From assembly GCA_958295825.1 (NCBI GenBank), contig OY282375.1, forward strand, positions 2,217,489-2,281,488: DNA of 64,000 bases, given 5' to 3'. This document shows, in pieces, positions 47,930-62,368 of the stretch (positions are counted from its first letter, which is position 1; every line of letters starts with the position of its first letter). Origin of the DNA: an uncultured Candidatus Entotheonella sp. (GTDB lineage: Bacteria; Tectomicrobia; Entotheonellia; Entotheonellales; Entotheonellaceae). The position numbers were made by a program, and so were the translations under genes. The notes under the pieces were generated by a model, which was given only the letters and a program-made list of their open reading frames with translations, searched no databases and was not told where the DNA came from.

Positions 47930-50374
47930 ATGGCCCTCAAAAAGTCCCAACTCTACGCCTCGCTCTGGCAAAGCTGCGACGAGCTTCGCGGCGGCATGGA
48001 TGCCTCGCAGTACAAGGACTACGTTCTTACCCTGCTGTTCATGAAGTATGTGTCGGACAAAGACGCCGGCAGGCCGGACGCGCTTATCGACGTGCCCGAC
48101 GGCGGCGGTTTTGCCGACATGGTGCGGCTCAAGGGCGACAAGGAGATTGGCGACAAGATCAACAAGATCATCGCACGGCTCGCCGAGGCCAATGACCTCA
48201 AGGGTGTCATCGACCAGGCCGACTTCAACGACGAGAGCAAGCTCGGCGCCGGCAAGGAGATGCAGGACCGGCTCTCCAGGCTGGTGGCCATTTTCGACGG
48301 TCTTGACTTTCGCGCCAACCGTGCCGAGGGCGACGACCTGCTCGGCGACGCCTACGAATACCTGATGCGCCACTTCGCCACCGAGTCCGGCAAGAGCAAG
48401 GGACAGTTCTACACCCCGGCCGAAGTATCGCGCATCATGGCCAAAGTGATCGGCATCGACGCCGACACCCGCCAGGACCAGACGATCTACGACCCCACCT
48501 GCGGCTCCGGCTCGTTGCTGCTCAAGGCCGCCGACGAGGCGCCTCACGGCATCACCGTCTATGGCCAGGAGATGGACAACGCCACTTGGGCGCTGGCGCG
48601 AATGAACATGATCCTGCACGACCATTCGACCGCCGAGTTGTGGCGCGGCAACACGTTGGCCGCTCCCTATTTCAAGAACCCGGACGGTCGTCTCAAGACG
48701 TTCGACTTCGCCGTTGCCAATCCCCCTTTCTCAGCCAAGGCGTGGTCCAGCGGTCTCGATCCCGCCCACGACGAATTCAGGCGTTTCGAGCATGGGATTC
48801 CCCCGGCCAAGAACGGCGATTACGCCTTTCTCCTGCACCTCATCGCGTCGCTGAAGAGCAAGGGCAAGGGCGCCATCATTCTGCCTCATGGCGTGCTGTT
48901 CCGCAGCAATAGGGAGGCCGACATCCGCAGGAAGCTCATACAGCACGGCCTGATCAAGGGCATCATCGGCCTGCCCGCCAATCTCTTCTACGGCACCGGC
49001 ATCCCCGCCTGCATCCTGGTCCTCGACAAGGAACACGCCGAGGCCCGCGCCGGTATCTTCATGATCGACGCGAGCAAGGGCTTCCTCAAGGACGGCAACA
49101 AGAACCGTCTGCGCGCCCAGGACATCCACCGCATCGTGGACGTGTTCACCAAGCAGACCGAATTGCCGCGTTATTCCCGCATGGTGCCGGTGGCCGAGAT
49201 CGCCAGTCCTGCCAACGACTACAACCTCAACATCCCGCGCTACGTCGACTCCAGCGAACCGGAAGATCTGCACGACCTCGACGCGCATCTGCACGGCGGC
49301 ATCCCCAATCGCGACCTTGACGCCCTGAGTGCCTACTGGTCTGTCTTTCCGTCCCTGCGCCAAGCGTTGTTCGCAGACAACGGGCGAACGGGCTACAGCG
49401 AGGCCCGGACCGAGACGCAGCAGGTGAAAGACGCCATCCACGGGCACGACGAGTTCGAGTCCTACCGGGAGCGGACCGCCGCCATCTTCGACGGCTGGCG
49501 TCAGAGCCATGAACCGCTTCTCAAGGGAATCGAGACGGGCGCCAATCCGAAAAACGTCGTCCACGCCCTGGCGGAAGACCTGCTCGCGCGCTTTTCCGCC
49601 CTGCCGCTGCTCGACCCCTATGATGTCTACCAACGGCTTTTGGACTACTGGGACGAGACGATGCAGGATGACGTGTACCTCCTCGTCGCCGATGGCTGGG
49701 TCGAGGCGGCCAAACCGCGCGACATCATCGAGGACAAGGGAAGGAAACTCAAAGAGACGCCGGACCTGACCATCGGTCGCAAGAAGTACAAAATGGACTT
49801 GATTCCCCCGGCCTTGGTTGTTGCGCGTTACTTTGCTGCCGAGCACGCCGCCCTTGAGAGATTCCAGGCCGGGCTGGACGCGGTCGCCCGCGAGCGGGAG
49901 GCGGTCTATGAGGAGGAGCTCACCGGCGACGAAGGTCTGCTGGCCAACGCGGTCAACGACAAGGGCAAGGTCACCAAGACAGGCGTGAAGGACCGGCTCA
50001 AGACCATTCAGCACGAGCCGGAAAGCGTCGTGGAATGGGCATTTCTCATGTGCTGCCTTGCCCTGATCGAGGCTGAATCCAGCGTGGGCAAGGCCGTCAA
50101 GGGCGCCCAGGCCGAGCTGGATCAACGGGTGCTGGCCCGCTATGCCACGCTCACCGAAACCGAGATCAAGACGCTGGTGGTCGAGGACAAATGGTTCGCT
50201 ACTATTCGGGAGGCTGTCGAGGGCGAAATGCAGCGGTTGACCCAGCAGCTTGCCGGGCGCGTCAAGGAGTTGGAAGGGCGCTACGCCCGGCCGCTGCCGG
50301 AGTTGGAGCAGGAGGTGGAAGCATTTGGCGCCAAGGTCGAGGGACACTTGAAGCGGATGGGCCTCTTTCTATGA
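47930..50374 (+). CDS. hsdM: Type I restriction-modification DNA methyltransferase subunit HsdM
   Basis: The protein has 814 residues. N6-adenine methylation motifs are DPTCGSGSLLL (188-198; SAM) and ANPPFSAKAW (NPPF at 264-267). The N-terminal helical domain (ALKKSQLYASLWQSCDELRG) and the GQFYTPAEVSRIM segment are HsdM-specific. It is longer than the classical ~500-residue form, with a C-terminal extension containing a coiled coil (QQLAGRVKELEGRYARPLPE). The extended form occurs in several type I subgroups. It leads a co-directional island; hsdS is separated from it by four small genes. Confidence 0.95.
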   Translation: MALKKSQLYASLWQSCDELRGGMDASQYKDYVLTLLFMKYVSDKDAGRPDALIDVPDGGGFADMVRLKGDKEIGDKINKIIARLAEANDLKGVIDQADFNDESKLGAGKEMQDRLSRLVAIFDGLDFRANRAEGDDLLGDAYEYLMRHFATESGKSKGQFYTPAEVSRIMAKVIGIDADTRQDQTIYDPTCGSGSLLLKAADEAPHGITVYGQEMDNATWALARMNMILHDHSTAELWRGNTLAAPYFKNPDGRLKTFDFAVANPPFSAKAWSSGLDPAHDEFRRFEHGIPPAKNGDYAFLLHLIASLKSKGKGAIILPHGVLFRSNREADIRRKLIQHGLIKGIIGLPANLFYGTGIPACILVLDKEHAEARAGIFMIDASKGFLKDGNKNRLRAQDIHRIVDVFTKQTELPRYSRMVPVAEIASPANDYNLNIPRYVDSSEPEDLHDLDAHLHGGIPNRDLDALSAYWSVFPSLRQALFADNGRTGYSEARTETQQVKDAIHGHDEFESYRERTAAIFDGWRQSHEPLLKGIETGANPKNVVHALAEDLLARFSALPLLDPYDVYQRLLDYWDETMQDDVYLLVADGWVEAAKPRDIIEDKGRKLKETPDLTIGRKKYKMDLIPPALVVARYFAAEHAALERFQAGLDAVAREREAVYEEELTGDEGLLANAVNDKGKVTKTGVKDRLKTIQHEPESVVEWAFLMCCLALIEAESSVGKAVKGAQAELDQRVLARYATLTETEIKTLVVEDKWFATIREAVEGEMQRLTQQLAGRVKELEGRYARPLPELEQEVEAFGAKVEGHLKRMGLFL

Positions 50375-50457: not shown

Positions 50458-50823
50458 GTGAAGTTACCCAATGCGAGTCAAGCTCGTGTCGATGCCGCCA
50501 AGATTGTCGATTACCTGCTTTCGACAAGCCATTCTGACGGTCGGAGCAAAGCCGTCTTCTTCTCGAACTTTGGGTTTAATGTAGAGCAATGGCAAAGCTT
50601 TGCCATTGCATTGCGTGATCACGGAACGAAGCAACGAAGCAATGAAGTCTCTGGAATCGTGACATCGGACTATGGTGTACGTTACAGCGTGGATGGCATA
50701 ATCAAAACACCCGATGGACGTAACCCACACGTGAGAACCGTGTGGATCATTGACAAAGAGGGCAGCCAACCACGGCTCGTTACCGCACGTCCGCTCAGGA
50801 GGGAAGATGCTCGAAGAACATGA
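50458..50823 (+). CDS. DUF6883-family protein
   Basis: There are 121 residues from GTG 50458 (GGGGGAA upstream). The pattern KLPNASQARVDAAKIVDYLL, the SHSDGRSKAVFFSNFGF stretch and the ending TVWIIDKEGSQPRLVTARPL match the DUF6883 family. These proteins are often followed by a DUF4926 protein, as here, where the frames overlap by 17 bases. The pair behaves like a toxin-antitoxin or toxin-immunity unit by context, but no activity is known to me. Confidence 0.75.
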   Translation: MKLPNASQARVDAAKIVDYLLSTSHSDGRSKAVFFSNFGFNVEQWQSFAIALRDHGTKQRSNEVSGIVTSDYGVRYSVDGIIKTPDGRNPHVRTVWIIDKEGSQPRLVTARPLRREDARRT

Positions 50824-51034
50824 TCGCATTGTGCTCACGGACGATATTTCCGACTCTGGTTTGAAGGCGGGAGACGTTGGAACGATCGTCCACACGTATC
50901 CCAATGGAGAGGCTTTCGAGGTGGAGTTTCTGACCCTTGATGGCAACACGGCGGCATTGGCCTCGGTTCTGCCGTCACAAGCGCGTCTGGTAACTCGCAC
51001 GGACATCACTCATACGAGAGAGATCACCGACTAA
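50807..51034 (+). CDS. DUF4926-family protein
   Basis: There are 75 residues from ATG 50807 (AGGAGGG upstream), overlapping the DUF6883 gene. The small beta-barrel-like pattern LTDDISDSGLKAGDVGTIVH, then YPNGEAFEVEFLTLDG, is diagnostic of DUF4926. It is the usual second gene of the DUF6883-DUF4926 pair. The lack of a signal peptide indicates a cytoplasmic partner or immunity-like protein. Confidence 0.8.
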   Translation: MLEEHDRIVLTDDISDSGLKAGDVGTIVHTYPNGEAFEVEFLTLDGNTAALASVLPSQARLVTRTDITHTREITD

Positions 51035-51189: not shown

Positions 51190-51324
51190 ATGCCGGATTT
51201 GTGTTTGCGTGACGCGACGGAATCCGCGGCATCACTTCGGGACACGATGCTGGAAATCAACCGTAACGCGCAACGGCGCGGTCTGACCCCCGATATTTTG
51301 CAATCCATCCTGGCCAACGAATGA
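51190..51324 (+). CDS. Small antitoxin-like protein upstream of a PIN remnant
   Basis: From ATG 51190 (GGAGGGG upstream) the frame encodes 44 residues ending DTMLEINRNAQRRGLTPDIL and QSILANE, the typical C-terminal part of antitoxins paired with PIN toxins (COG1569 type). An open frame extends upstream to 51049 without clear similarity, so the start and the N-terminus may be damaged. Its stop overlaps the start of the PIN fragment (ATGA). Confidence 0.5.
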   Translation: MPDLCLRDATESAASLRDTMLEINRNAQRRGLTPDILQSILANE

Positions 51325-51400
51325 CCCGCTTCGTCTTCGATACAATCGTCATTGTCAGCGCGTTACTCTTCAACGACTCCCTGCCAGCACGGACGTTCAT
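51321..51400 (+). pseudogene. PIN-domain toxin, N-terminal remnant
   Basis: ATG 51321 gives MTRFVFDTIVIVSALLFNDS, the typical start of COG1569-type PIN toxins (usually FDTNVIVSALL; the Asn is Ile here). After 26 residues similarity ends at the repeat element 51408-51498, and the remaining three quarters of the toxin are missing. The toxin is therefore inactive. Confidence 0.65.
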
Positions 51401-51407
51401 CCCATGC

Positions 51408-51498
51408 AACCCCCCTTGTCAGGGGGGCTTTTGGAGGGCCGTCTTGGTTACTCGGGGCTTTTGACCTATCCCCCCTGATAAAGGGGGGCAAGGGGGTT
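51408..51498. repeat. Inverted-repeat element upstream of hsdS
   Basis: AACCCCCCTTGTCAGGGGGGC at the left edge and its near reverse complement at the right (GCAAGGGGGTT, preceded by CCCCCCTGATAAAGGGGG) make an element of about 90 bases with nested G/C-run hairpins. It lies where the PIN toxin is truncated, so it is probably a small mobile or extragenic repeat unit. Confidence 0.5.
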
Positions 51499-51577
51499 AT
51501 GTCCCTGCAACCCATGCGTAACGTCAGGTCTTTGGATGGGCGATTTTGGCTGCCTGCAATTGCAAAGGAAAAGTAAC

Positions 51578-52831
51578 ATGCCCACCCCCAAACCTCGGTA
51601 CAGCAAAGCGGAGTTCGCTCGCCGCGGAGATGAGATTTATGATCGAGACATAAGCCCCCATGCTGGACCCGCTGATGAAGGCAAGTTTGTGGTTATCAAT
51701 ATCGAGGGGGCGTGGGAGACGAAGCGGTTGGAGCACGTCACCGACTGCTTTGACCACGTTCGTATCCCTTTGAATGAAATTCAACGAGTCAACAGGCCGG
51801 GGCCTTATCCGTATTGTGGTGCAAACGGTGTCTTAGATTATGTGGACGACTTCGTTCTTGATGATGATGTAATTTTGATCGCTGAGGACGGAGGATATTT
51901 TGACGAATATGCTTATCGTCCTATAGCTTACCGGATGTCGGGAAAAATCTGGGTGAATAATCATGCACATATCCTTAAAGCTAAATTTGGCTATAGCCAA
52001 GGATTTCTATTTTATTCTCTGGTGCATAAGAACATACTCCCGTACTTAGCTAGCGGTACTCGTGCGAAACTCAACAAGTCCGAAATGAATAAGATTGAAA
52101 TATATATCCCACTTGATAGCGATGAACAAGAAACCATCGCTGCCGTCCTCTCCGACGTCGATGGATTGATCGGGGCGTTAGAGAAGTTGATTGCCAAGAA
52201 GCAGGCCATCAAGCAGGCTGTCATGCAACAACTTCTTACCGGCAAGACGCGCCTACCGGGCTTCGGCGGGGCGTGGGAGACGAAGCGGTTGGAGCACGTC
52301 ACCGACTGCTTTGACCACGTTCGTATCCCTTTGAATGAAATTCAACGAGTCAACAGGCCGGGGCCTTATCCGTATTGTGGTGCAAACGGTGTCTTAGATT
52401 ATGTGGACGACTTCGTTCTTGATGATGATGTAATTTTGATCGCTGAGGACGGAGGATATTTTGACGAATATGCTTATCGTCCTATAGCTTACCGGATGTC
52501 GGGAAAAATCTGGGTGAATAATCATGCACATATCCTTAAAGCTAAATTTGGCTATAGCCAAGGATTTCTATTTTATTCTCTGGTGCATAAGAACATACTC
52601 CCGTACTTAGCTAGCGGTACTCGTGCGAAACTCAACAAGTCCGAAATGAATAAGATTGAAATATATATCCCACTTGATAGCGATGAACAAGAAACCATCG
52701 CTGCCGTCCTCTCCGACATGGACGCCGAAATTGCCGCACTGGAACGCCGCCGGGACAAGACCCGCGCCATCAAGCAGGGCATGATGCAGCAACTCCTCAC
52801 CGGCCGAGTTCGGCTTGTGAAGCCGGAGTAG
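51578..52831 (+). CDS. hsdS: Type I restriction specificity subunit HsdS, chimeric with duplicated TRDs
   Basis: There are 417 residues from ATG 51578 (AAAGGAAAA upstream). Residues 1-43 (TPKPRYSKAEFARRGDEIYD, then DEGKFVVINIE) are not HsdS but match the start of a small family of ~90-residue proteins. From residue 44 HsdS begins at GAWETKRLEHV. Two target-recognition halves of 150 residues are identical, each followed by a conserved helix: DVDGLIGALEKLIAKKQAIK with QQLLTGKTRLPGF, and DMDAEIAALERRRDKTRAIK with LLTGRVRL. Identical TRDs would favour a palindromic bipartite target, if the protein is active. The repeats are visibly AT-richer than the rest of the island. Confidence 0.88.
   Translation: MPTPKPRYSKAEFARRGDEIYDRDISPHAGPADEGKFVVINIEGAWETKRLEHVTDCFDHVRIPLNEIQRVNRPGPYPYCGANGVLDYVDDFVLDDDVILIAEDGGYFDEYAYRPIAYRMSGKIWVNNHAHILKAKFGYSQGFLFYSLVHKNILPYLASGTRAKLNKSEMNKIEIYIPLDSDEQETIAAVLSDVDGLIGALEKLIAKKQAIKQAVMQQLLTGKTRLPGFGGAWETKRLEHVTDCFDHVRIPLNEIQRVNRPGPYPYCGANGVLDYVDDFVLDDDVILIAEDGGYFDEYAYRPIAYRMSGKIWVNNHAHILKAKFGYSQGFLFYSLVHKNILPYLASGTRAKLNKSEMNKIEIYIPLDSDEQETIAAVLSDMDAEIAALERRRDKTRAIKQGMMQQLLTGRVRLVKPE
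51707..52156 (+). repeat. Perfect 450-bp direct repeat, copy 1 (hsdS TRD)
   Basis: Compared base by base with 52268-52717, no difference was seen over 450 bases. The period is 561 bases (187 codons), so recombination between copies would keep the frame. The left edge coincides with the end of the foreign N-terminal segment. Confidence 0.93.
52268..52717 (+). repeat. Perfect 450-bp direct repeat, copy 2 (hsdS TRD)
   Basis: This is the second copy of 51707-52156. It begins within LPGFGGAWETK, the usual entry to the second HsdS recognition domain, and ends within TIAAVLSD at the start of the C-terminal helix. Confidence 0.93.
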
Positions 52832-53005: not shown

Positions 53006-53821
53006 ATGGCCATCGAGACCGTGGAGCGAGACTTTCACGACAAGGTCTCGACGAAGATTCGGCTCGCAGCCGAGGGCATGGAACGCTTCCGCGTGTTGAC
53101 GCCCTTCCTGTTCGAAGACGGCGACCATTTGTCCATCGTCCTGAAGAAGGAAGGCGCCCGGTGGGTGCTATCCGACGAGGCGCACACGTACATGCACCTT
53201 ACCTATGACCTGGACGAGAGAGACCTCCATACCGGCACACGCCAGAAGATCATCGCCAACGCGCTGTCTGTTTTCCAGGTCGAAGACCGGGACGGAGAGT
53301 TGGTACTCGAGGTGCCGGATGAGCGCTACGGCGACGCGCTCTATTCATTTGTTCAGGCGCTTCTCAAGATCACGGACGTCTCGTACCTGTCGCGGGAGCG
53401 GGCTCGGTCCACTTTCATGGAAGATTTCCGGGCGCTGCTGAGCGAGGCTGCTCCCGAGGAACGCCGGGTTTTCGATTGGAGCGACCCCGACCACGACCCG
53501 CGTGGAATTTATACGGTGGACTGCCGAATCAACGGTATGCCGCGCCCTCTTTTTGTTCATGCCTTGACGGGTGACGGGAGAACCCGCGATGCCACGATCG
53601 CGCTGCACCAGTTCGAGAAGTGGGGCATCGCGTTCCGTTCCCTGGCCATTTTCGAGGACCAGGAATCGATCAATCGGAAGGTGCTCGCGCGCTTCAGCGA
53701 CACGTGCGAGAAGCAGTTTTCCAGTCTGGCCGCGAACCGCGACAGGATCATGCACTTTCTGGGTGCAAGTATTTCGGGGGAGGGGAGGGAAGCCCGCGGT
53801 GAAGCACCTGAAATTGGGTAA
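53006..53821 (+). CDS. DUF1828 domain protein (island accessory gene)
   Basis: The protein has 271 residues. The N-terminal DUF1828 is recognisable from RVLTPFLFEDGDHLSIVLKK, RWVLSDEAHTYMHLTYD and KIIANALSVFQVEDRDGELV. The C-terminal part (IYTVDCRINGMPRPLFVHAL, IALHQFEKWG) resembles the DUF1829 companion domain. These proteins occur in defence and mobile regions, but no activity is known. The start is preceded by GGAGGGA and lies four bases after the small ORF. Confidence 0.72.
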   Translation: MAIETVERDFHDKVSTKIRLAAEGMERFRVLTPFLFEDGDHLSIVLKKEGARWVLSDEAHTYMHLTYDLDERDLHTGTRQKIIANALSVFQVEDRDGELVLEVPDERYGDALYSFVQALLKITDVSYLSRERARSTFMEDFRALLSEAAPEERRVFDWSDPDHDPRGIYTVDCRINGMPRPLFVHALTGDGRTRDATIALHQFEKWGIAFRSLAIFEDQESINRKVLARFSDTCEKQFSSLAANRDRIMHFLGASISGEGREARGEAPEIG

Positions 53822-53830
53822 CGTGAAACC

Positions 53831-53938
53831 ATGAGTACGATCGGGGAACGGGAAATTCGCACCCAGCAACGTGTTGTTGCATTCTTCCAGGCGGCACTCG
53901 GCCGCGTCGACCTCGGCGCCATTGAGAAATCGACGTGA
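53831..53938 (+). pseudogene. Truncated duplicate of the hsdR 5' end
   Basis: ATG 53831 gives STIGEREIRTQQRVV and then FFQAALG, the same start as hsdR at 55694. The first 48 bases are identical; three differences follow over the next ~24. After about 72 bases the similarity stops and the frame ends at 53938. It precedes the ATPase gene, so the ATPase was placed between an old and a new hsdR start. Confidence 0.85.
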
Positions 53939-53951
53939 AGGAGCGGCGTTC

Positions 53952-55499
53952 ATGATCGAGAAGCGTTTCAGAGACCTCTGGGAGCGGTTGCAGGGCAAGA
54001 AACCCCATTTGCCGCATTTTCTGGCGGAAATCCACCTGGAGGGCATTCGCGGCATCGACGATATCCGGGTGGTGTTCGATTACCCGGTGAGCGTCATCGC
54101 CGGCGGCAATGCCAGCGGCAAGTCGACCGTGCTCTTTGCGGCTGCCTGCGCCTACAAGGTGCCGGGAGCGGGCGTCAAGGACTTCGTGCCGTCCACGCTT
54201 TTTCCCGATTACCGGCCCAAGCTGGGAGAACGCGAGGATGAGAAGCATGCAATCGTTCTTGAGTTCGACTATTCGACGCCCGATGGGCGGCAGTCCATGC
54301 GGTGGCGGCGTGCCAAGGGTTGGAATCGCAGCTTCCTCGGTCGTAAGAACGCCAGCCAGCCGGAACGGTTGCTCTATCTCAGGACACTCAGCAATCTCAG
54401 CAATCCGGCCGAGGTTCGCGGTGTACTCAGCATGTCTCGCCTGAGTTCCGAGCCGCTGGAATCTCCTTTGACAGCGTCACAGATCGAGTTCGCGCAGCGG
54501 ATGCTTCCTTTCCGGTATTCAGAAGTCGTCCACCTGTCCAGTGGCGGCAAGAACTTGCTCTTTGCCGCTCAGGAAGGTGGCGCGTCATACTCCGAATTGC
54601 ACATGGCCGCTGGCGAGCGCGCCATCTTGCGGCTGTCGCGGGAAATCGCCCAGCTCGAAGACGCGCTGGTTCTGATTGACGAAGTGGAAGCTGGCCTGCA
54701 CCCGTGGATCCAGCAACTTCTCATGTTGCAACTACAGCAACTTGCCCTGCGTAACGACCTGCAGATCATCGTAACCTCTCACAGCCCGGTCGTGCTCGAC
54801 TCGGTGCCTGCGCACGGACGCATCTTTCTCGAACGTGACGAAAAGGGCCGGGTTGCGGTACGCCCGGCGTATCGCGATGTGGTCCAGGACGCCCTGTACG
54901 GGCGCTCCGGCGACGCGCTCAACCTGCTATGTGAAGACGATGCGGCCGAAGGCGTTCTGCACGGCATTTTTGACGTTTTGCTACCCCGACAGAGAATCAG
55001 GAGGGAATCGGTTCGCATCGGGCGGGACACAGGTGCCGGCGAGTTCCCGGCGCATGCCGCGGCTTTCAGGAAATTCGGCCAGTTCCAAAACGTCGTCTTC
55101 ATTCTCGATGGCGACAAGCGGGGCTGCGACATTGAACGAAAGATACAAGAAGGCGCCGGGAGTGAAGTCCCCGTATTGTTTCTTGCCGGCCGTGCCGCGC
55201 CGGAAGTCTGGGTGTGGGATCGGTTGCGGCAGAGCTCGGAGGGCGCCAGGGAATTGAGCATTGATCCCGCCGAACTGTTCGAACGGATGAATCGGCTGGA
55301 CTCGGTCTACGACTCGGCGTCCGACCACCCGTCACAGATCGCCAAGACCAAACTTCGCGGTCTGTCCGAACCCCTGGGTTGGGACCCCCCGGATATTTGC
55401 CGGGTCGTTGCCCGGCTGGAGGCCAGCCGGAAGGAAAGCGATATTCAGCCTTTGGTGGAAGGGTTGGCGAATGCGCTGCTGCGGTGGCGCGCAAATTAA
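53952..55499 (+). CDS. OLD-like AAA ATPase with TOPRIM-type domain
   Basis: The protein has 515 residues from ATG 53952 (AAGGAGC upstream). The ABC/SMC-like ATPase has a Walker A in VIAGGNASGKSTV (51-59), a Walker B in LVLIDEVEAGLHP (239-251) and a His switch in IIVTSHSPVVLDS. The C-terminal third carries a TOPRIM-like acidic set: LLCEDDAAEGVL (Glu near 328) and VFILDGDKRGCD (DxD near 386-388). OLD-family nucleases and related defence ATPases share this plan. It interrupts the hsdR region together with a truncated hsdR start and probably acts as an accessory defence gene. Confidence 0.82.
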   Translation: MIEKRFRDLWERLQGKKPHLPHFLAEIHLEGIRGIDDIRVVFDYPVSVIAGGNASGKSTVLFAAACAYKVPGAGVKDFVPSTLFPDYRPKLGEREDEKHAIVLEFDYSTPDGRQSMRWRRAKGWNRSFLGRKNASQPERLLYLRTLSNLSNPAEVRGVLSMSRLSSEPLESPLTASQIEFAQRMLPFRYSEVVHLSSGGKNLLFAAQEGGASYSELHMAAGERAILRLSREIAQLEDALVLIDEVEAGLHPWIQQLLMLQLQQLALRNDLQIIVTSHSPVVLDSVPAHGRIFLERDEKGRVAVRPAYRDVVQDALYGRSGDALNLLCEDDAAEGVLHGIFDVLLPRQRIRRESVRIGRDTGAGEFPAHAAAFRKFGQFQNVVFILDGDKRGCDIERKIQEGAGSEVPVLFLAGRAAPEVWVWDRLRQSSEGARELSIDPAELFERMNRLDSVYDSASDHPSQIAKTKLRGLSEPLGWDPPDICRVVARLEASRKESDIQPLVEGLANALLRWRAN

Positions 55500-55693: not shown

Positions 55694-58600
55694 ATGAGTA
55701 CGATCGGGGAACGGGAAATTCGCACCCAGCAACGTGTTGTTACGTTCTTCCAGGAGGCACTCGGCTATGCCTACCTCGGTCACTGGAAAGATCGCGACGG
55801 CAACAGCAACATCGAGGAAACGTTGCTTACGGACTGGCTGACGCGCCAGGGTTACAACGACAAGATCATCGCCAAGGTGCTGTCTGAACTGGATAAGGCC
55901 ACGGCACTCGGCGGCAGCAAGACCCTCTACGACGCCAACCGGCAGGTCTACGGCCTGCTGCGTTACGGCGTGAAAATCCAGCCGGACGTGGACGAGCAGA
56001 ACATGACCGTCTGGCTGATTGACTGGGCGAATCCCGACCATAACGACTTCGCCCTTGCCGAAGAGGTGACGGTTGCGGGGGAGAATACCAAGCGGCCCGA
56101 CCTCGTGCTCTACGTCAACGGCATCGCCTTGGGCGTGCTGGAGTTGAAGCGCTCGACCGTATCGGTGAGCGAGGGTATCCGCCAGAATCTCGACAGCCAG
56201 AAGAAGATGTTCATCCAGCCGTTCTTCACCACGGTGCAACTCCTGATGGCGGGTAACGACACCGAGGGGCTGCGCTACGGCGTGATTGAAACGCCGGAGA
56301 AGTACTGGCTGCGCTGGAAGGAAGCCGAAGCCCACCCAGCCGCGGAAGATAACCCGCTGCTACGGGAACTGGGCCAACTGTGCGGCACGGAGCGGCTGCT
56401 GGAAGTCGTGCACGATTTCGTCGTCTTCGACGCCGGCGTCAAGAAAATTTGCCGCCATAACCAGTACTTCGGGGTGCGGGCGGCACAGGCGCGTGTGCAG
56501 CGCCGCGAAGGCGGCATCATCTGGCACACGCAAGGCAGCGGCAAGAGCCTGACCATGGTCTGGCTGGCGAAATGGATCCGCGAGCACGTGACCGGCGGGC
56601 GAGTGTTGGTCGTCACCGACCGTACCGAACTGGACGAGCAAATCGAAAAGGTGTTCAAGGGCGTCAGCGAGGATATCCACCGCAGCAGCAGCGGCGCCGA
56701 TTTGGTGCAGGCGTTGGGCACCGGCAATGAATGGCTGATCGGCTCGCTGGTCCACAAATTCGGCGCCTCAGAGGAAATGAGTGAAAGGGATATCGAGACC
56801 TACGTCGAGGAGATCAGGAAAAGCCTTCCCAAGGGGTTCCACGCCAAGGGCGAGATATTCGTCTTCGTGGACGAATGTCACCGCACGCAATCCGGGAAGC
56901 TCCATCATGCGATGAAAGCGCTGTTGCCGCGGGCGACGCTGATCGGTTTCACTGGAACGCCGCTCCTCAAGGACGACAAGCGCCGGAGCATTGAGACCTT
57001 TGGGCCGTACATCCACACCTACAAGTACGACGAGGCGGTGGACGACGGGGTGGTGTTGGACCTGCGCTACGAGGCGCGCGACATCGACCAGAACCTGACC
57101 TCGCAGGCCAAAATCGACCAGTGGTTCGAGCTCAAGACCCGGGGCCTGACCGACGTGGCAAAGGCCCAACTCAAGCAACGGTGGGGCACGCTGCGGAGCG
57201 TGCTGAGTTCGCAGGACCGATTGGGCAAGATCGTTGATGACATCCTGATCGACATGGAGACGCGCGATCGTCTCAAGAGTGGCCACGGCAACGCGCTGCT
57301 GGTCTCCGACAGCATCTACTCGGCGTGTCGCTTCTTCGACATGTTTCGCCAGACTGATCTGGCGGGTAAATGCGCCATCGTGACCTCCTACAAGCCGTCC
57401 CCGGCGAGCATCAAGGGGGAAGCGAGCAACGAGGGGCTGACCGAGAAACTGCGCCAGTATGACATCTACCGAAGAATGCTCGCGGCGCACTTCGACGAGC
57501 CGGAAGACTCGGCCATGCACAAGGTGGAACGTTTCGAGCAGGAGGTCAAAAAACGCTTCATTGACGAGCCGGGACGGATGAAGCTCCTCATCGTGGTCGA
57601 CAAACTGTTGACGGGCTTTGACGCGCCGCCGGCGACCTGTCTGTACATTGACAAGCCGATGCAAGACCACGGCCTGTTCCAGGCCATCTGCCGGGTCAAC
57701 CGCCTCGACGGCGAGGACAAGGAATACGGGTACGTCATCGACTACAAGGACCTGTTCCGGTCGTTGGAGCGGTCTATCAAGGATTACACTGGCGAGGCTT
57801 TCGATGGCTACGACAGGGACGACGTGCAGGGTTTGCTGAAGGACCGGCTGGCGCAGGGCCAGGAGCGATTGGAGGCAGCGCGCGAGGCGGTAAAGGCGCT
57901 GTGCGAGCCGGTTGAGCCGCCGTGCGATGCCGCTGCCTACCGGCGTTTCTTCTGCGCCGCCGAGAGCGGCAATGCCGAGCAGCTGAAGGACAACGAAGCG
58001 AAGCGCGTAACCCTCTATCGGCTGGCCGCCGCATTCCTGCGGGCTTATGCCAACTTGGCCAACGAGATGCGCCAGGCTGGCTATTCCGACGCCGAGGCGC
58101 AGCGGATCAAGGCCGAGGTGGATCATTACGAAAAGGTGCGCCAGGCGGTCAAGCTCGCCAGCGGCGATTACATCGACCTGAAAATGTATGAACCGGCCAT
58201 GCGGCATCTGCTCGACACGTACATCCGGGCCGAAGAGAGCGAGCAACTCTCTGCTTTCGACGACTTGACGTTGATACAGCTGATCGTTGAGCGCGGCGAA
58301 GCAGCGATCGATGCGTTGCCCGAGGGCACCCGCAAGAACCCCGAAGCGGTGGCCGAAACGATTGAGAACAACGTCCGGCGGCTCATCATCGACGAGATGG
58401 CCGTCAACCCCAAGTATTATGAGAAGATGTCGGAATTGCTGGATGCCCTGATTCGCCAGCGCAAGCAGGAAGCCTTGGACTACAAGGCCTATCTGGCCAA
58501 GATCGTCGCGTTGACCGGGAAGGTCAGTCAGCCGGAAACCGCTACGTCCTATCCTGCGAACATCCAAAACGCCACCCTACGGGCGCTTTACGATAATCTG

Positions 58601-58846
58601 CAAGAACCAGAGGTCTCGGTCGTGCGCGACCCGATGACGCAATATGGTGGCACGCCGACTTCTGACGCCAGGGAAGGGCGAGTTCTTGCCCTGGATCGTG
58701 CCATCCGTCGTGTAAAGAAGGCAGACTGGCGCGGGAACAGATTCAAGGAACGCGAGGTTCGCAACGCTATCAAGTCAGTGCTCGGCGACGACGAGGGCCT
58801 GGTGAGGACGATATTCGAACTCGTGAAGGCACAGCGTGACTATTGA
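55694..58846 (+). CDS. hsdR: Type I restriction endonuclease subunit HsdR
   Basis: The protein has 1050 residues. The nuclease domain carries a PD-(D/E)xK motif: RPDLVLYVNGIALGVLELKR (Asp136, Glu150, Lys152). The SF2 translocase follows, with motif I in WHTQGSGKSLTMVWLAKW (281-285), DECH at 393-396 in VFVDECHRTQSG, motif III FTGTPL and motif VI QAICRVNRLDG. The C-terminal helical domain binds HsdM. The 194 bases upstream of ATG 55694 hold no recognisable gene except a basic 58-codon frame. It is followed by the YgjP-type gene with an 11-base overlap. Confidence 0.96.
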   Translation: MSTIGEREIRTQQRVVTFFQEALGYAYLGHWKDRDGNSNIEETLLTDWLTRQGYNDKIIAKVLSELDKATALGGSKTLYDANRQVYGLLRYGVKIQPDVDEQNMTVWLIDWANPDHNDFALAEEVTVAGENTKRPDLVLYVNGIALGVLELKRSTVSVSEGIRQNLDSQKKMFIQPFFTTVQLLMAGNDTEGLRYGVIETPEKYWLRWKEAEAHPAAEDNPLLRELGQLCGTERLLEVVHDFVVFDAGVKKICRHNQYFGVRAAQARVQRREGGIIWHTQGSGKSLTMVWLAKWIREHVTGGRVLVVTDRTELDEQIEKVFKGVSEDIHRSSSGADLVQALGTGNEWLIGSLVHKFGASEEMSERDIETYVEEIRKSLPKGFHAKGEIFVFVDECHRTQSGKLHHAMKALLPRATLIGFTGTPLLKDDKRRSIETFGPYIHTYKYDEAVDDGVVLDLRYEARDIDQNLTSQAKIDQWFELKTRGLTDVAKAQLKQRWGTLRSVLSSQDRLGKIVDDILIDMETRDRLKSGHGNALLVSDSIYSACRFFDMFRQTDLAGKCAIVTSYKPSPASIKGEASNEGLTEKLRQYDIYRRMLAAHFDEPEDSAMHKVERFEQEVKKRFIDEPGRMKLLIVVDKLLTGFDAPPATCLYIDKPMQDHGLFQAICRVNRLDGEDKEYGYVIDYKDLFRSLERSIKDYTGEAFDGYDRDDVQGLLKDRLAQGQERLEAAREAVKALCEPVEPPCDAAAYRRFFCAAESGNAEQLKDNEAKRVTLYRLAAAFLRAYANLANEMRQAGYSDAEAQRIKAEVDHYEKVRQAVKLASGDYIDLKMYEPAMRHLLDTYIRAEESEQLSAFDDLTLIQLIVERGEAAIDALPEGTRKNPEAVAETIENNVRRLIIDEMAVNPKYYEKMSELLDALIRQRKQEALDYKAYLAKIVALTGKVSQPETATSYPANIQNATLRALYDNLQEPEVSVVRDPMTQYGGTPTSDAREGRVLALDRAIRRVKKADWRGNRFKEREVRNAIKSVLGDDEGLVRTIFELVKAQRDY

Positions 58847-59567
58847 TGACAGAGGCCACCAAATCGACGTGCGGGGTACAACCGTGGAGATCGTCCACAG
58901 GGACATCAAGAACCTCCACGTGGGTGTCTATCCGCCAAGCGGTCGGGTGCGGGTGGCCGCGCCGTTGCGCCTTGATGAGGATGCCGTGCGTCTGGCCGTT
59001 ATTTCGCGCCTTGGATGGATTCGCCGTCAACAGGCCGGATTCCAGCAGCAGGCTCGCCAGTCCCAGCGGGAGTTCGTCACCGGCGAGAGTCATTACGTTG
59101 AAGGCCGGCGCTACCGGCTTGGCGTAACCGAACACGATGGCCCGCCAACTGTTCGTCTGCTTAACAATACGACGTTAGCTTTAACCGTTCGTCCTGACAC
59201 CAGCCGCGACAAGCGGGAGGCTGTGCTTTACCGGTGGTATCGCCACCGGCTCCGAAGCCGTCTGCCCGCGCTTCTTGCAAAATGGGAATCGAGGGTTGGA
59301 ACGCGGGGTACTGAAACGCGCATCAAGAAGATGAAAACCCACTGGGGAACGTGCAACGCGGATGCCCGCCGTATCTGGCTAAATCTCGAATTGGCGAAGA
59401 AACCGGTGTTGTGCCTTGAGTACATCCTGGTGCATGAGATGGTCCACCTGATTGAGCGTAATCATACCGACCGGTTTCGGCAATTGATGGACACACTCAT
59501 GCCGCAGTGGCGCGTTTATCGGGATGAGTTGAATCAGAGCCCACTGGCGCATGAAGCCTGGCGTTAG
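58836..59567 (+). CDS. YgjP-like (DUF45) zinc metallopeptidase
   Basis: There are 243 residues from GTG 58836, overlapping hsdR by 11 bases. The zinc motif LVHEMVHLIERNHTDRF (HExxH plus a downstream His) and the MKTHWGTCN block are typical of the family. YgjP-like genes often follow hsdR in type I loci, a recurring association whose role is unknown; proteolytic control of HsdR is one hypothesis. The protein has no signal peptide. Confidence 0.9.
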   Translation: MTIDDRGHQIDVRGTTVEIVHRDIKNLHVGVYPPSGRVRVAAPLRLDEDAVRLAVISRLGWIRRQQAGFQQQARQSQREFVTGESHYVEGRRYRLGVTEHDGPPTVRLLNNTTLALTVRPDTSRDKREAVLYRWYRHRLRSRLPALLAKWESRVGTRGTETRIKKMKTHWGTCNADARRIWLNLELAKKPVLCLEYILVHEMVHLIERNHTDRFRQLMDTLMPQWRVYRDELNQSPLAHEAWR

Positions 59568-59731: not shown

Positions 59732-62368
59732 ATGAACGCCACAGAGCCGATCCCAATGACTGCGTTGCGGCCAACGGGCGCGGTGTTTCATCGCTGCGCC
59801 TTGCACGTGAATCCGCACCACGACGGCGCCGCGGCGATCGTAGCCAAGGCCGTCGAGCTCGGCGTGTCCGTGCTTGCCGTTTCCGACCCTGGTGGCGTGG
59901 CAGCGTTTCGTACCGCGGCTGCGGGCCAGGGCATCACCCTGTTCCCCGGCCTTGAGTTAACGTCCGCCGAGGGCATTCATGTTCTTTGCATCTACCCGCC
60001 GGACACGGACGAGAGGAAACTTGAACGATTCCTCGGCCAGCTCGGAGTTGACCGTCCCGCATCTTCCGTCGGCGAGGCAAGCGCGTCGTTCGAGAACGTT
60101 CTGACGCGGGTCCGCGTACAGGGCGGCGTGGTGATTGCCGCACATGCGACGCCCGACGGTGGCCTGTTCGATGGCCTGTCGGCCCAGACGTGGCGCAGCG
60201 AAGACCTGCTCGCCGTCCGCATTCCCGGACCCATCGAGGAGCTTCCTGAAGACACGCGCCGTATCCTCGAAAACCGGAACGCGGACTACCGGCGCGTCCA
60301 TCCCGCGGGCGACAAACAGGCGGTGGCCGTGATCAACGCAAACGACGTTACGATCGCTGCGGACCTCGAACACCCCGCCGCTACCTGCCGCATCAAGATG
60401 TCCGAGGTGAGCATCGAGGGCTTGCGGCAGGCGTTTCTGGATCCAGACTCGCGCATCCGCCTCAATCGTCAGGACGGCGAATCGGAAGCCGAGGCGCACA
60501 CCGAGTTGATGGGCCTTGCGTGGGAGGGGGGCTTTCTGGACGGCGCCAGCATCTCGCTGAACCCCAACCTCAACGTCCTGGTCGGCGGGCATGGCGCCGG
60601 CAAGTCAACGATCATTGAAAGCCTGCGCTACGTGCTGGCTCTGGCCCCCGTCGGCGAAGAGGCGGGCAAGGCCCACCAGGGTATCGTGCGCCACGTGCTG
60701 CGCAGCGGCACCAAGGTCTCGCTGCGCGTGCGCTGTTATCGCCCGGCGAGGCGCGAGTACCTGATCGAGCGCACCGTCCCCAATCCGCCCGTGGTCCGCG
60801 ACGAAAACGGCTTGGTCTCCAACCTGCTGCCCAGGGACATCCTGCCCCGCGTCGAGGTGTACGGCCAGCACGAGATCTCGGAGCTCGCCCGCAGCGGCGA
60901 GAAGCTCACCCGCTTGCTCGACCGCTTTGCCCAGTCCGACCCGTCGATGGCCAGGCGCAAGGCCGACCTCCGCCGCGATCTCAGGAAGACGCGGGAAGCC
61001 CTGTTGGACGCGCAGGCGGAGTTGCGGCACATCGCAGAGCGGCTGGCGGCTCTGCCCAGCCTGGAAGAGACCCTCGAACGCTTCCGGGAAGTCGGGCTTG
61101 AGGACCGCTTGCGCGGGCGTAGCCTGCTGGTGCGCGGGGAGCAGGTGATGGACTCGATTCCCGAACGCCTGCGCACCTTCCGCGACGGCCTGGAAACCAT
61201 GCGGCAGGAACTTCCCCTCAATCGCGTGTTCCTGTCGCCCGAAGCGCTTGAGGACCTGCCGGGCCGGGACATCCTCGGCGGCGCGGACCGCGTGCTGGAG
61301 CGCCTGAGCAACGATCTCCAATCCATCGTGCGTCAATTGGACGAAGCGCTGGCGCGCGCCGACGACGGCATCACCGAGGTGCGTTCCCGCTGGGACAGGC
61401 ATCGGCTGGAGGTGCAGAACGCGTACGAAGAAATTCTACGTGAGCTGCAGCAGGCGGCGGTGGACGGTGAGGAGTTCATCCGCCTGCGGGGCGAGATTGA
61501 GGGGCTGCGCCCGCTGCAGGATCGCCAGTCGCTGTTGCAGCAGCAGGAAAGCGAATACCTGAACCGCCGCCGGGCGCTGCTGGCCGAGTGGGAGGACGTC
61601 AAGGCCGAGGAGTTCCGCGCCCTCGACCGGGCCGCGCAGAGCGTCAGTAGCAGGCTGACCGGCCGCGTTCAAGTGGAGGTCACGGCCGCGGGGAATCGAG
61701 AACCGCTGGCCGCGCTACTGCGTAACCGGGTCGGCGGCAACCTCAAGAGCACGGTCGAAAAACTGGCGGGGCTGGGCACGATGTCCCTGGTCGATCTGGC
61801 CGCCGCTTGCCGCGACGGCGCCGACGCCTTGGTCGACGCCTACGGCCTGACTCGGGGCCAAGCGCGAAACATCGCCGAGGCCGGGCCGGATATTGCCCTG
61901 CGCATCGAGGAACTGGAACTGCCGCCCACGACCACCATCCGGCTCAACACCGCGCCGCCCGGTGCAGCGCCGTCGTGGCAGGCGCTCGACGCGCTCTCGA
62001 TCGGCCAGAAGGCCACCGCGGTGCTGCTGCTCCTTCTTCTCGAATCCGACGCGCCGCTGATTGTGGATCAGCCCGAAGGCGACCTCGACAACCGCTCCAT
62101 TACCGAGGGCATCGTGCCCCGGATGCGTGAGGAAAAGCAACGGCGGCAGTTCATCTTTTCGACCCACAACGCCAATATCCCGGTGCTCGGCGACGCCGAA
62201 CTGATCCTCGGGCTGACCGCCTCGGGCGAGACCGGCGGCGGACAGGGGCGCATCGCGCCGGAGCACCTGGGCTCGATTGATACCCAACTGGTGCGCGCGT
62301 TGGTGGAGGACATTCTCGAAGGCGGCAAAGATGCCTTTGAGACGAGGCGGCTGAAGTACGGCTTCTGA
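59732..62368 (+). CDS. TrlF-like PHP-SMC ATPase
   Basis: The protein has 878 residues. The N-terminal PHP-like domain is followed by an SMC/ABC ATPase with Walker A VLVGGHGAGKST (about 283-292), a long coiled coil (about 395-640), and a C-terminal ABC signature region ALSIGQKATAVLLLLLLESD with Walker B LIVDQPEGDLDN and the FIFSTHNANIPVLG switch. The PHP metal motifs appear altered (ALHVNPHH rather than the usual DxHxH, and SDPGG rather than TDHN), so catalysis is uncertain. TrlF-type ATPases are typical island genes beside type I loci. It is separated from YgjP by 164 bases. Confidence 0.82.
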   Translation: MNATEPIPMTALRPTGAVFHRCALHVNPHHDGAAAIVAKAVELGVSVLAVSDPGGVAAFRTAAAGQGITLFPGLELTSAEGIHVLCIYPPDTDERKLERFLGQLGVDRPASSVGEASASFENVLTRVRVQGGVVIAAHATPDGGLFDGLSAQTWRSEDLLAVRIPGPIEELPEDTRRILENRNADYRRVHPAGDKQAVAVINANDVTIAADLEHPAATCRIKMSEVSIEGLRQAFLDPDSRIRLNRQDGESEAEAHTELMGLAWEGGFLDGASISLNPNLNVLVGGHGAGKSTIIESLRYVLALAPVGEEAGKAHQGIVRHVLRSGTKVSLRVRCYRPARREYLIERTVPNPPVVRDENGLVSNLLPRDILPRVEVYGQHEISELARSGEKLTRLLDRFAQSDPSMARRKADLRRDLRKTREALLDAQAELRHIAERLAALPSLEETLERFREVGLEDRLRGRSLLVRGEQVMDSIPERLRTFRDGLETMRQELPLNRVFLSPEALEDLPGRDILGGADRVLERLSNDLQSIVRQLDEALARADDGITEVRSRWDRHRLEVQNAYEEILRELQQAAVDGEEFIRLRGEIEGLRPLQDRQSLLQQQESEYLNRRRALLAEWEDVKAEEFRALDRAAQSVSSRLTGRVQVEVTAAGNREPLAALLRNRVGGNLKSTVEKLAGLGTMSLVDLAAACRDGADALVDAYGLTRGQARNIAEAGPDIALRIEELELPPTTTIRLNTAPPGAAPSWQALDALSIGQKATAVLLLLLLESDAPLIVDQPEGDLDNRSITEGIVPRMREEKQRRQFIFSTHNANIPVLGDAELILGLTASGETGGGQGRIAPEHLGSIDTQLVRALVEDILEGGKDAFETRRLKYGF

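Follow-up and report, generated by a model that had tools for sequence, protein, structure and literature searches.

Known HsdS proteins place their two target recognition domains (TRDs) in inverted orientation by means of antiparallel helices (PMC3320862, PMC3874165). Symmetric targets have been described for EcoR124INT (GAAN7TTC), EcoDXXI truncations, NgoAV and BstXI (PMC3320862, PMC3874165). Passages of a study of Helicobacter pylori (PMC3077401) describe two alleles with a repeated TRD: HPV225_1544, a Type IIG S allele with the same TRD as TRD1 and TRD2, and jhp1422, a Type I S gene in which the duplication of TRD2 is put down to unequal recombination. The same passages ascribe the movement of H. 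pylori TRDs to recombination at flanking repeats, termed domain movement (DoMo). Here we compare these systems with a Type I hsdS gene found in a 64-kb window (the whole stretch of DNA analysed, 64,000 nucleotides) of an uncultured Candidatus Entotheonella sp. genome, referred to below as G000.

Two identical TRDs in one hsdS gene

The locus has the gene order hsdM, DUF6883, DUF4926, a third small ORF, a PIN-like remnant, hsdS, DUF1828, AAA-ATPase, hsdR and YgjP-like peptidase. Its features are listed below by position in the window; G001 is a genome of the same genus.

47930-50374, plus strand: hsdM, 814 aa, intact; N6_Mtase and HsdM_N domains, MTase_I in PADLOC
50458-50823, plus strand: small DUF6883 gene (PF21814) between hsdM and hsdS, conserved in G001
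50750-51034, plus strand: small DUF4926 gene (PF16277), conserved in G001
51321-51402, plus strand: 5′ remnant of a PIN-toxin-like gene, frame MTRFVFDTIVIVSALLFNDSLPARTFI; the alignment with G001 ends at 51402
51403-51706, plus strand: 304-bp stretch holding a GC-rich inverted-repeat element and a truncated small gene, absent from the orthologous locus of the same genus
51410-51487, no strand: GC-rich inverted repeat CCCCCCTTGTCAGGGGGG / CCCCCCTGATAAAGGGGG
51578-52831, plus strand: hsdS, 417 aa, an uninterrupted frame lying between intact hsdM and hsdR
51578-51706, plus strand: first 43 codons of a gene for a small standalone protein, in frame with hsdS and likely supplying its start
51707-52156, plus strand: TRD copy 1 (first slot), the same as copy 2 at 450/450 bases
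52157-52267, plus strand: CR1, central conserved linker (VDGLIGALEKLIAKKQAIKQ...TGKTRLPGFG), 83% identical in amino acids to CR1 of L028
52268-52717, plus strand: TRD copy 2 (second slot, the probable ancestral position); the closest relatives, L028, L029, L030 and L057, have it here only
52718-52831, plus strand: CR2, distal conserved region (MDAEIAALERRRDKTRAIKQ...TGRVRLVKPE), 82% identical in amino acids to L028 and 82.5% to G001
55694-58846, plus strand: hsdR, 1050 aa, intact; HSDR_N, SWI2_SNF2 and TIGR00348, REase_I in PADLOC
58836-59567, plus strand: YgjP-like metallopeptidase (PF01863), found after hsdR in many relatives (L029, L031, L033, L034 and others)

The hsdS open reading frame spans 51536-52831, or 51578-52831 when counted from the second ATG. 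Alignment of the two TRD copies confirmed the exact identity, edges, separation and frame given in the original prediction: all 450 bases agree, the spacer is 111 bp, and the offset of 561 bp (187 codons) keeps the copies in frame. Outside both edges of the repeat, identity drops abruptly to background. Chance is far too weak an explanation for this agreement. Zero differences in 450 bases place a 95% upper limit of 0.66% on the divergence of the copies, which are therefore either young or held equal by ongoing conversion. The spacer and the linker downstream of copy 2 are not identical, with 78% identity in the best 49-bp stretch. Each copy scores 61.8 bits against PF01420 (Methylase_S). The GC content of the TRD is 44.7%, against 62.3% for the window, and the TRD likewise falls below the locus average in the relatives checked. 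The single-contig genome (4,286,367 bases) contains no third copy or silent cassette of the TRD block.

As expected for a Type I HsdS, the protein has an HsdS fold and a pair of Methylase_S TRDs kept apart by conserved helical regions, and its gene is linked to intact hsdM and hsdR genes. An AlphaFold model (mean pLDDT 85.6, pTM 0.77) contains two equal sets of TRD secondary-structure elements and two long helices (residues 181-220 and 368-406), and Foldseek matched it to the solved HsdS structures 1yf2 (E 3.9e-19) and 1ydx (E 4.6e-18). Assignment as a Type 1 1/2 (AhdI-like) methyltransferase, which has a single-TRD S subunit, was considered and rejected, as both TRDs lie in one chain.

A small-gene start fused to hsdS

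In most close family members the first TRD begins approximately with GYKQTEVGVIPEDWE and the second with TRLPGFxGxWE. Neither stretch opens TRD copy 1. In frame ahead of it stands MPTPKPRYSKAEFARRGDEIYDRDISPHAGPADEGKFVVINIE, 51% identical to the first half of a small protein of 91 aa that is encoded on its own in L110. The match ends with ...IDIE, immediately before TGDFEL, and this junction between small gene and hsdS coincides exactly with the left edge of TRD identity. The sequence AGGA, a few bases 5′ of the fused ATG (51578), is a plausible ribosome-binding site; no sigma-70-like promoter was found near hsdS. Residues 1-39, the fused tail, have pLDDT values below 50 in the model and are predicted to be disordered, and loss of the usual start (...GYKQTEVGVIPEDWE) might impair folding or expression. 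Members of the small-gene family were not found on the plasmids searched. The 304-bp stretch that carries the fused segment is single copy in G000, and in G001 its inverted-repeat part alone has matches. Parts of that element (51410-51487) match 27 places in G001 but only this one in G000 at the search threshold.

Direction of copying and proposed origin

The closest relatives of the TRD (L029, 82%; L057, 80%; L028, 79%; L030, 77%) all have it in the second slot. In L028, L029 and L057 the first slot is filled by a different TRD; in L030 there is no first TRD. Phylogenetic analysis placed the two copies and these relatives in a six-row clade (support 98/97) in which all other rows are slot 2 domains. 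Copy 1 ends in EQETIAAVLSD, as does copy 2, and then continues into the first-slot linker VDGLIGALEKLIAKKQAIKQ; copy 2 continues into the distal MDAEIAALERRRDKTRAIKQ. Given the slot 2 relatives and the TRD2-type end of copy 1, comparison of the sequences points most likely to movement of TRD material from slot 2 to slot 1. The proposal that hsdS had undergone a recent duplication or gene conversion is borne out by the absence of differences, by TRD2-type ends on both copies and by single-copy relatives with another partner; L028, L029 and L057 provide the single TRD with a different partner, and in its own genome the TRD occurs as these two copies only.

As expected for domain movement, the same TRD family occupies both slots among relatives: slot 1 in L038, L039 and L042, and slot 2 in L028, L029, L057 and others. 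The right edge of the moved block lies in the conserved LSD motif; the left edge is the small-gene junction, not a flanking repeat. Searches for a recent donor revealed none, with homologues of at most 43% identity in viral contigs and 48% in plasmids. In L030 (positions 3-2501, a Poribacteria MAG), hsdM runs in frame into one second-slot TRD of this family, similar to an engineered M-half-S fusion (PMC6158711); the contig comes from short reads, and the fusion is possibly an assembly effect.

We consider it probable that the second TRD was duplicated inside a Type I hsdS by unequal recombination, followed by a deletion that supplied the small-gene start, yielding a reader of palindromic sites; the order of events, the activity and the target are what we infer. 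Unequal recombination at the conserved LSD motifs behind each TRD would duplicate the CR1-TRD2 unit, producing a three-TRD gene, TRD1-CR1-TRD2-CR1-TRD2-CR2. A deletion would then take out the 3′ part of the small gene together with the normal start of hsdS, the original TRD1 and the first of the two CR1 linkers, so that the small gene's first 43 codons run in frame into the first TRD2 copy and provide a new start. Such a deletion would make the left identity edge and the fusion junction one and the same, with no coincidence required, and the TRD2-type end of copy 1, joined to CR1, matches the expected product at the right edge. The route is a reconstruction, and no strain was found with either the three-TRD intermediate or the old TRD1.

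The main rival, which we regard as unlikely, is a one-step gene conversion of TRD1 by TRD2, with homologous resolution at LSD and illegitimate end-joining into the small gene. This would reach the same end product in one event, not two, and the right edge does lie in a motif common to both slots, but it requires one-sided homology, and the published parallel, a Type I S gene with TRD2 in duplicate, is ascribed, in the passages of PMC3077401 cited above, to unequal recombination.

The locus and its same-genus counterpart

The orthologous locus in G001 has an ordinary hsdS with two different TRDs. Blastn comparison of the window with this locus gave no match from 51403 to ~52695; in a local alignment, the linker around CR1 can still be seen to be related. 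The hsdM gene is 95%/82% identical to its G001 orthologue, which is itself split at codon 416/417; over the first 416 codons the two differ by 9.1%, and by 25% at fourfold sites. The G001 Type I locus (L127, reverse complement) looks broken, with hsdM split at this codon and transposase genes in hsdR at ~codon 662.

The remnant at 51321-51402, which from its motif we take to be PIN-like, follows an antitoxin-like ORF, and G001 has the same gene truncated differently. Because the truncations differ, the gap between hsdM and hsdS looks like a hot spot for the gain and loss of small genes. Positions 53006-55499 hold the DUF1828 gene (PDC-M24B in PADLOC) and the AAA ATPase gene (HEC-04-like), and a TrlF-family ATPase gene lies 3′ of YgjP at 59732-62368. 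The restriction locus appears to be part of a defence island.

The gene remnants between hsdM and hsdS, and the broken state of the same-genus locus (hsdM frame split, insertions in hsdR), could indicate that hsdS too is decaying, its fused and truncated N-terminus making a non-functional S subunit and the duplication being debris. We judge this improbable: no stop interrupts the 417 codons, the 561-bp unit preserves the frame, hsdM and hsdR are intact, the model is confident beyond the first 39 residues, and the fused start is preceded by a plausible ribosome-binding site.

Twin TRDs in other HsdS proteins

We scored TRD identity within HsdS proteins by aligning each half against the other. 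Three of the seven HsdS in G000 proved to be twins, at 100% (DNA), 98.6% (DNA) and 76% (protein). The second (G000:C1:3106438-3107838; L022; L192 10364-12160, minus strand) encodes 598 aa; its halves share 508 of 515 core bases, and the identity starts and stops sharply near ORF positions 191 and 733. The third (~2472954-2474102; L024; L193 10955-12103) encodes 382 aa with halves 76% identical in protein and lies in a Type I-like locus. An open frame of 71 aa at G000:C1:3869158-3869310 matches part of a TRD and may be an hsdS remnant. Outside G000, L171 (G002:C11, same family, sister genus) has a twin HsdS with halves 74% identical in a frame that is short at the 5′ end; its TRDs are 35-44% identical to those of L024, making this an independent case.

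Among 85 HsdS of at least 300 aa that match the protein studied here, it is alone in having fully identical TRDs. The halves of L027, L104 and L067 agree at 66-68%; below these, the best long matches reach ~43-44%. In the tree, TRD1 and TRD2 of L027 are mutually nearest (94/85), as are those of L104 (98/74); although the support is moderate, this pairing suggests that these twins are independent duplications. The wider comparison set comprised 92 HsdS from other genomes, collected by Pfam search, of which 89 were from outside this family. Half-to-half identity is at least 65% in two of these 89 (69% and 68%) and reaches 85% in none. Fisher's test of 3/7 against 2/89 gives p = 0.002 in what is a small post hoc comparison of automatically picked ORFs, driven by one genome.

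Diverged twins such as that at 76% imply that twin subunits last long enough to diverge, and the arrangement here looks persistent and recurrent, not merely transient. The suggestion that the gene is a transient intermediate is accordingly weakened by the two further G000 twins (98.6% DNA and 76% protein) and by the diverged twins of other genomes. It is a tentative and rather doubtful idea that the host lineage repeatedly homogenises Type I S TRDs and retains them, palindromic specificities being favoured or readily made.

A switching intermediate of a phase-variable hsdS locus is very unlikely. The 450-bp in-frame direct repeats are able to recombine, and a gene that had lost one 561-bp unit would encode a single-TRD subunit of 230 aa. 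A phase-variable inverting locus would be expected to have silent hsdS cassettes, inverted repeats or a recombinase; the genome has no further copy of this TRD, the neighbouring genes that were identified include neither another hsdS nor a recombinase, and the other G000 twins have already diverged. Least probable of all is that a single TRD was assembled twice: exact repeats are a classic assembly problem, but the copies have distinct canonical downstream flanks (CR1 and CR2), the reading frame is preserved, the contig extends over 4.29 Mb, and an assembler would not invent the independent, slightly diverged twin elsewhere in the genome.

Predicted specificity

Since antiparallel helices invert the two TRDs, two equal TRDs are expected to read an interrupted palindrome, and by this analogy the product of duplication and deletion in hsdS should act as a covalent, homodimer-like S subunit with such a target. 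The folded subunit, with two equal TRDs in inverted orientation and two HsdM, would direct methylation of the interrupted palindrome, and HsdR would cut unmethylated DNA carrying it. No solved structure resembles the TRD in sequence at E ≤ 0.01, and the half-site can therefore not be transferred from a known enzyme. The open-access literature searched held no additional example of a natural palindromic Type I methylome. If one 561-bp unit were lost, the frame would be kept and the remaining single-TRD subunit would have an unchanged predicted half-site, so that one recombination step would link the fused and the split (AhdI-like) forms.

Discussion

Of the original prediction, the duplication stands, the palindromic target is a sound expectation, and the transience is weakened; the replaced N-terminus and the already described alleles had been overlooked. 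Domain movement is the established name for this kind of event, and precedents exist. What goes beyond it is the fusion to a foreign start and the concentration of several twins in one genome. If active, this would be a naturally occurring Type I enzyme whose specificity chain carries two letter-identical TRDs and is expressed from a foreign start codon. The graded twins of G000 (100%, 98.6% and 76%) form a series in which to ask about drift into or out of palindromic specificity, about the lifespan of twin alleles and about a possible benefit of symmetric Type I targets.

Judged from the passages of PMC3077401 cited above, HPV225_1544 resembles the present hsdS in having the same TRD in both slots and differs in belonging to a Type IIG system; those passages do not report a foreign start fusion for it. 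In the same passages jhp1422 retains TRD1 and so has three TRDs, whereas hsdS here has two. NgoAV, EcoR124I delta50 / EcoR124INT and M.AhdI likewise derive symmetric specificity from two equal TRDs (PMC3874165, PMC3320862), but in two separate single-TRD subunits in place of one fused chain. In pneumococcal spnIII of strain G54, rearrangement at a Type I locus has given two copies of an identical TRD (PMC6620402, PMC7557576); these sit in separate hsdS genes of a phase-variable locus, in contrast to the single gene described here. The S subunit of M.BstXI also joins two TRDs in one chain; they read the same half-site of a symmetric target, but are similar, not identical, and belong to a Type II system (PMC3874165).
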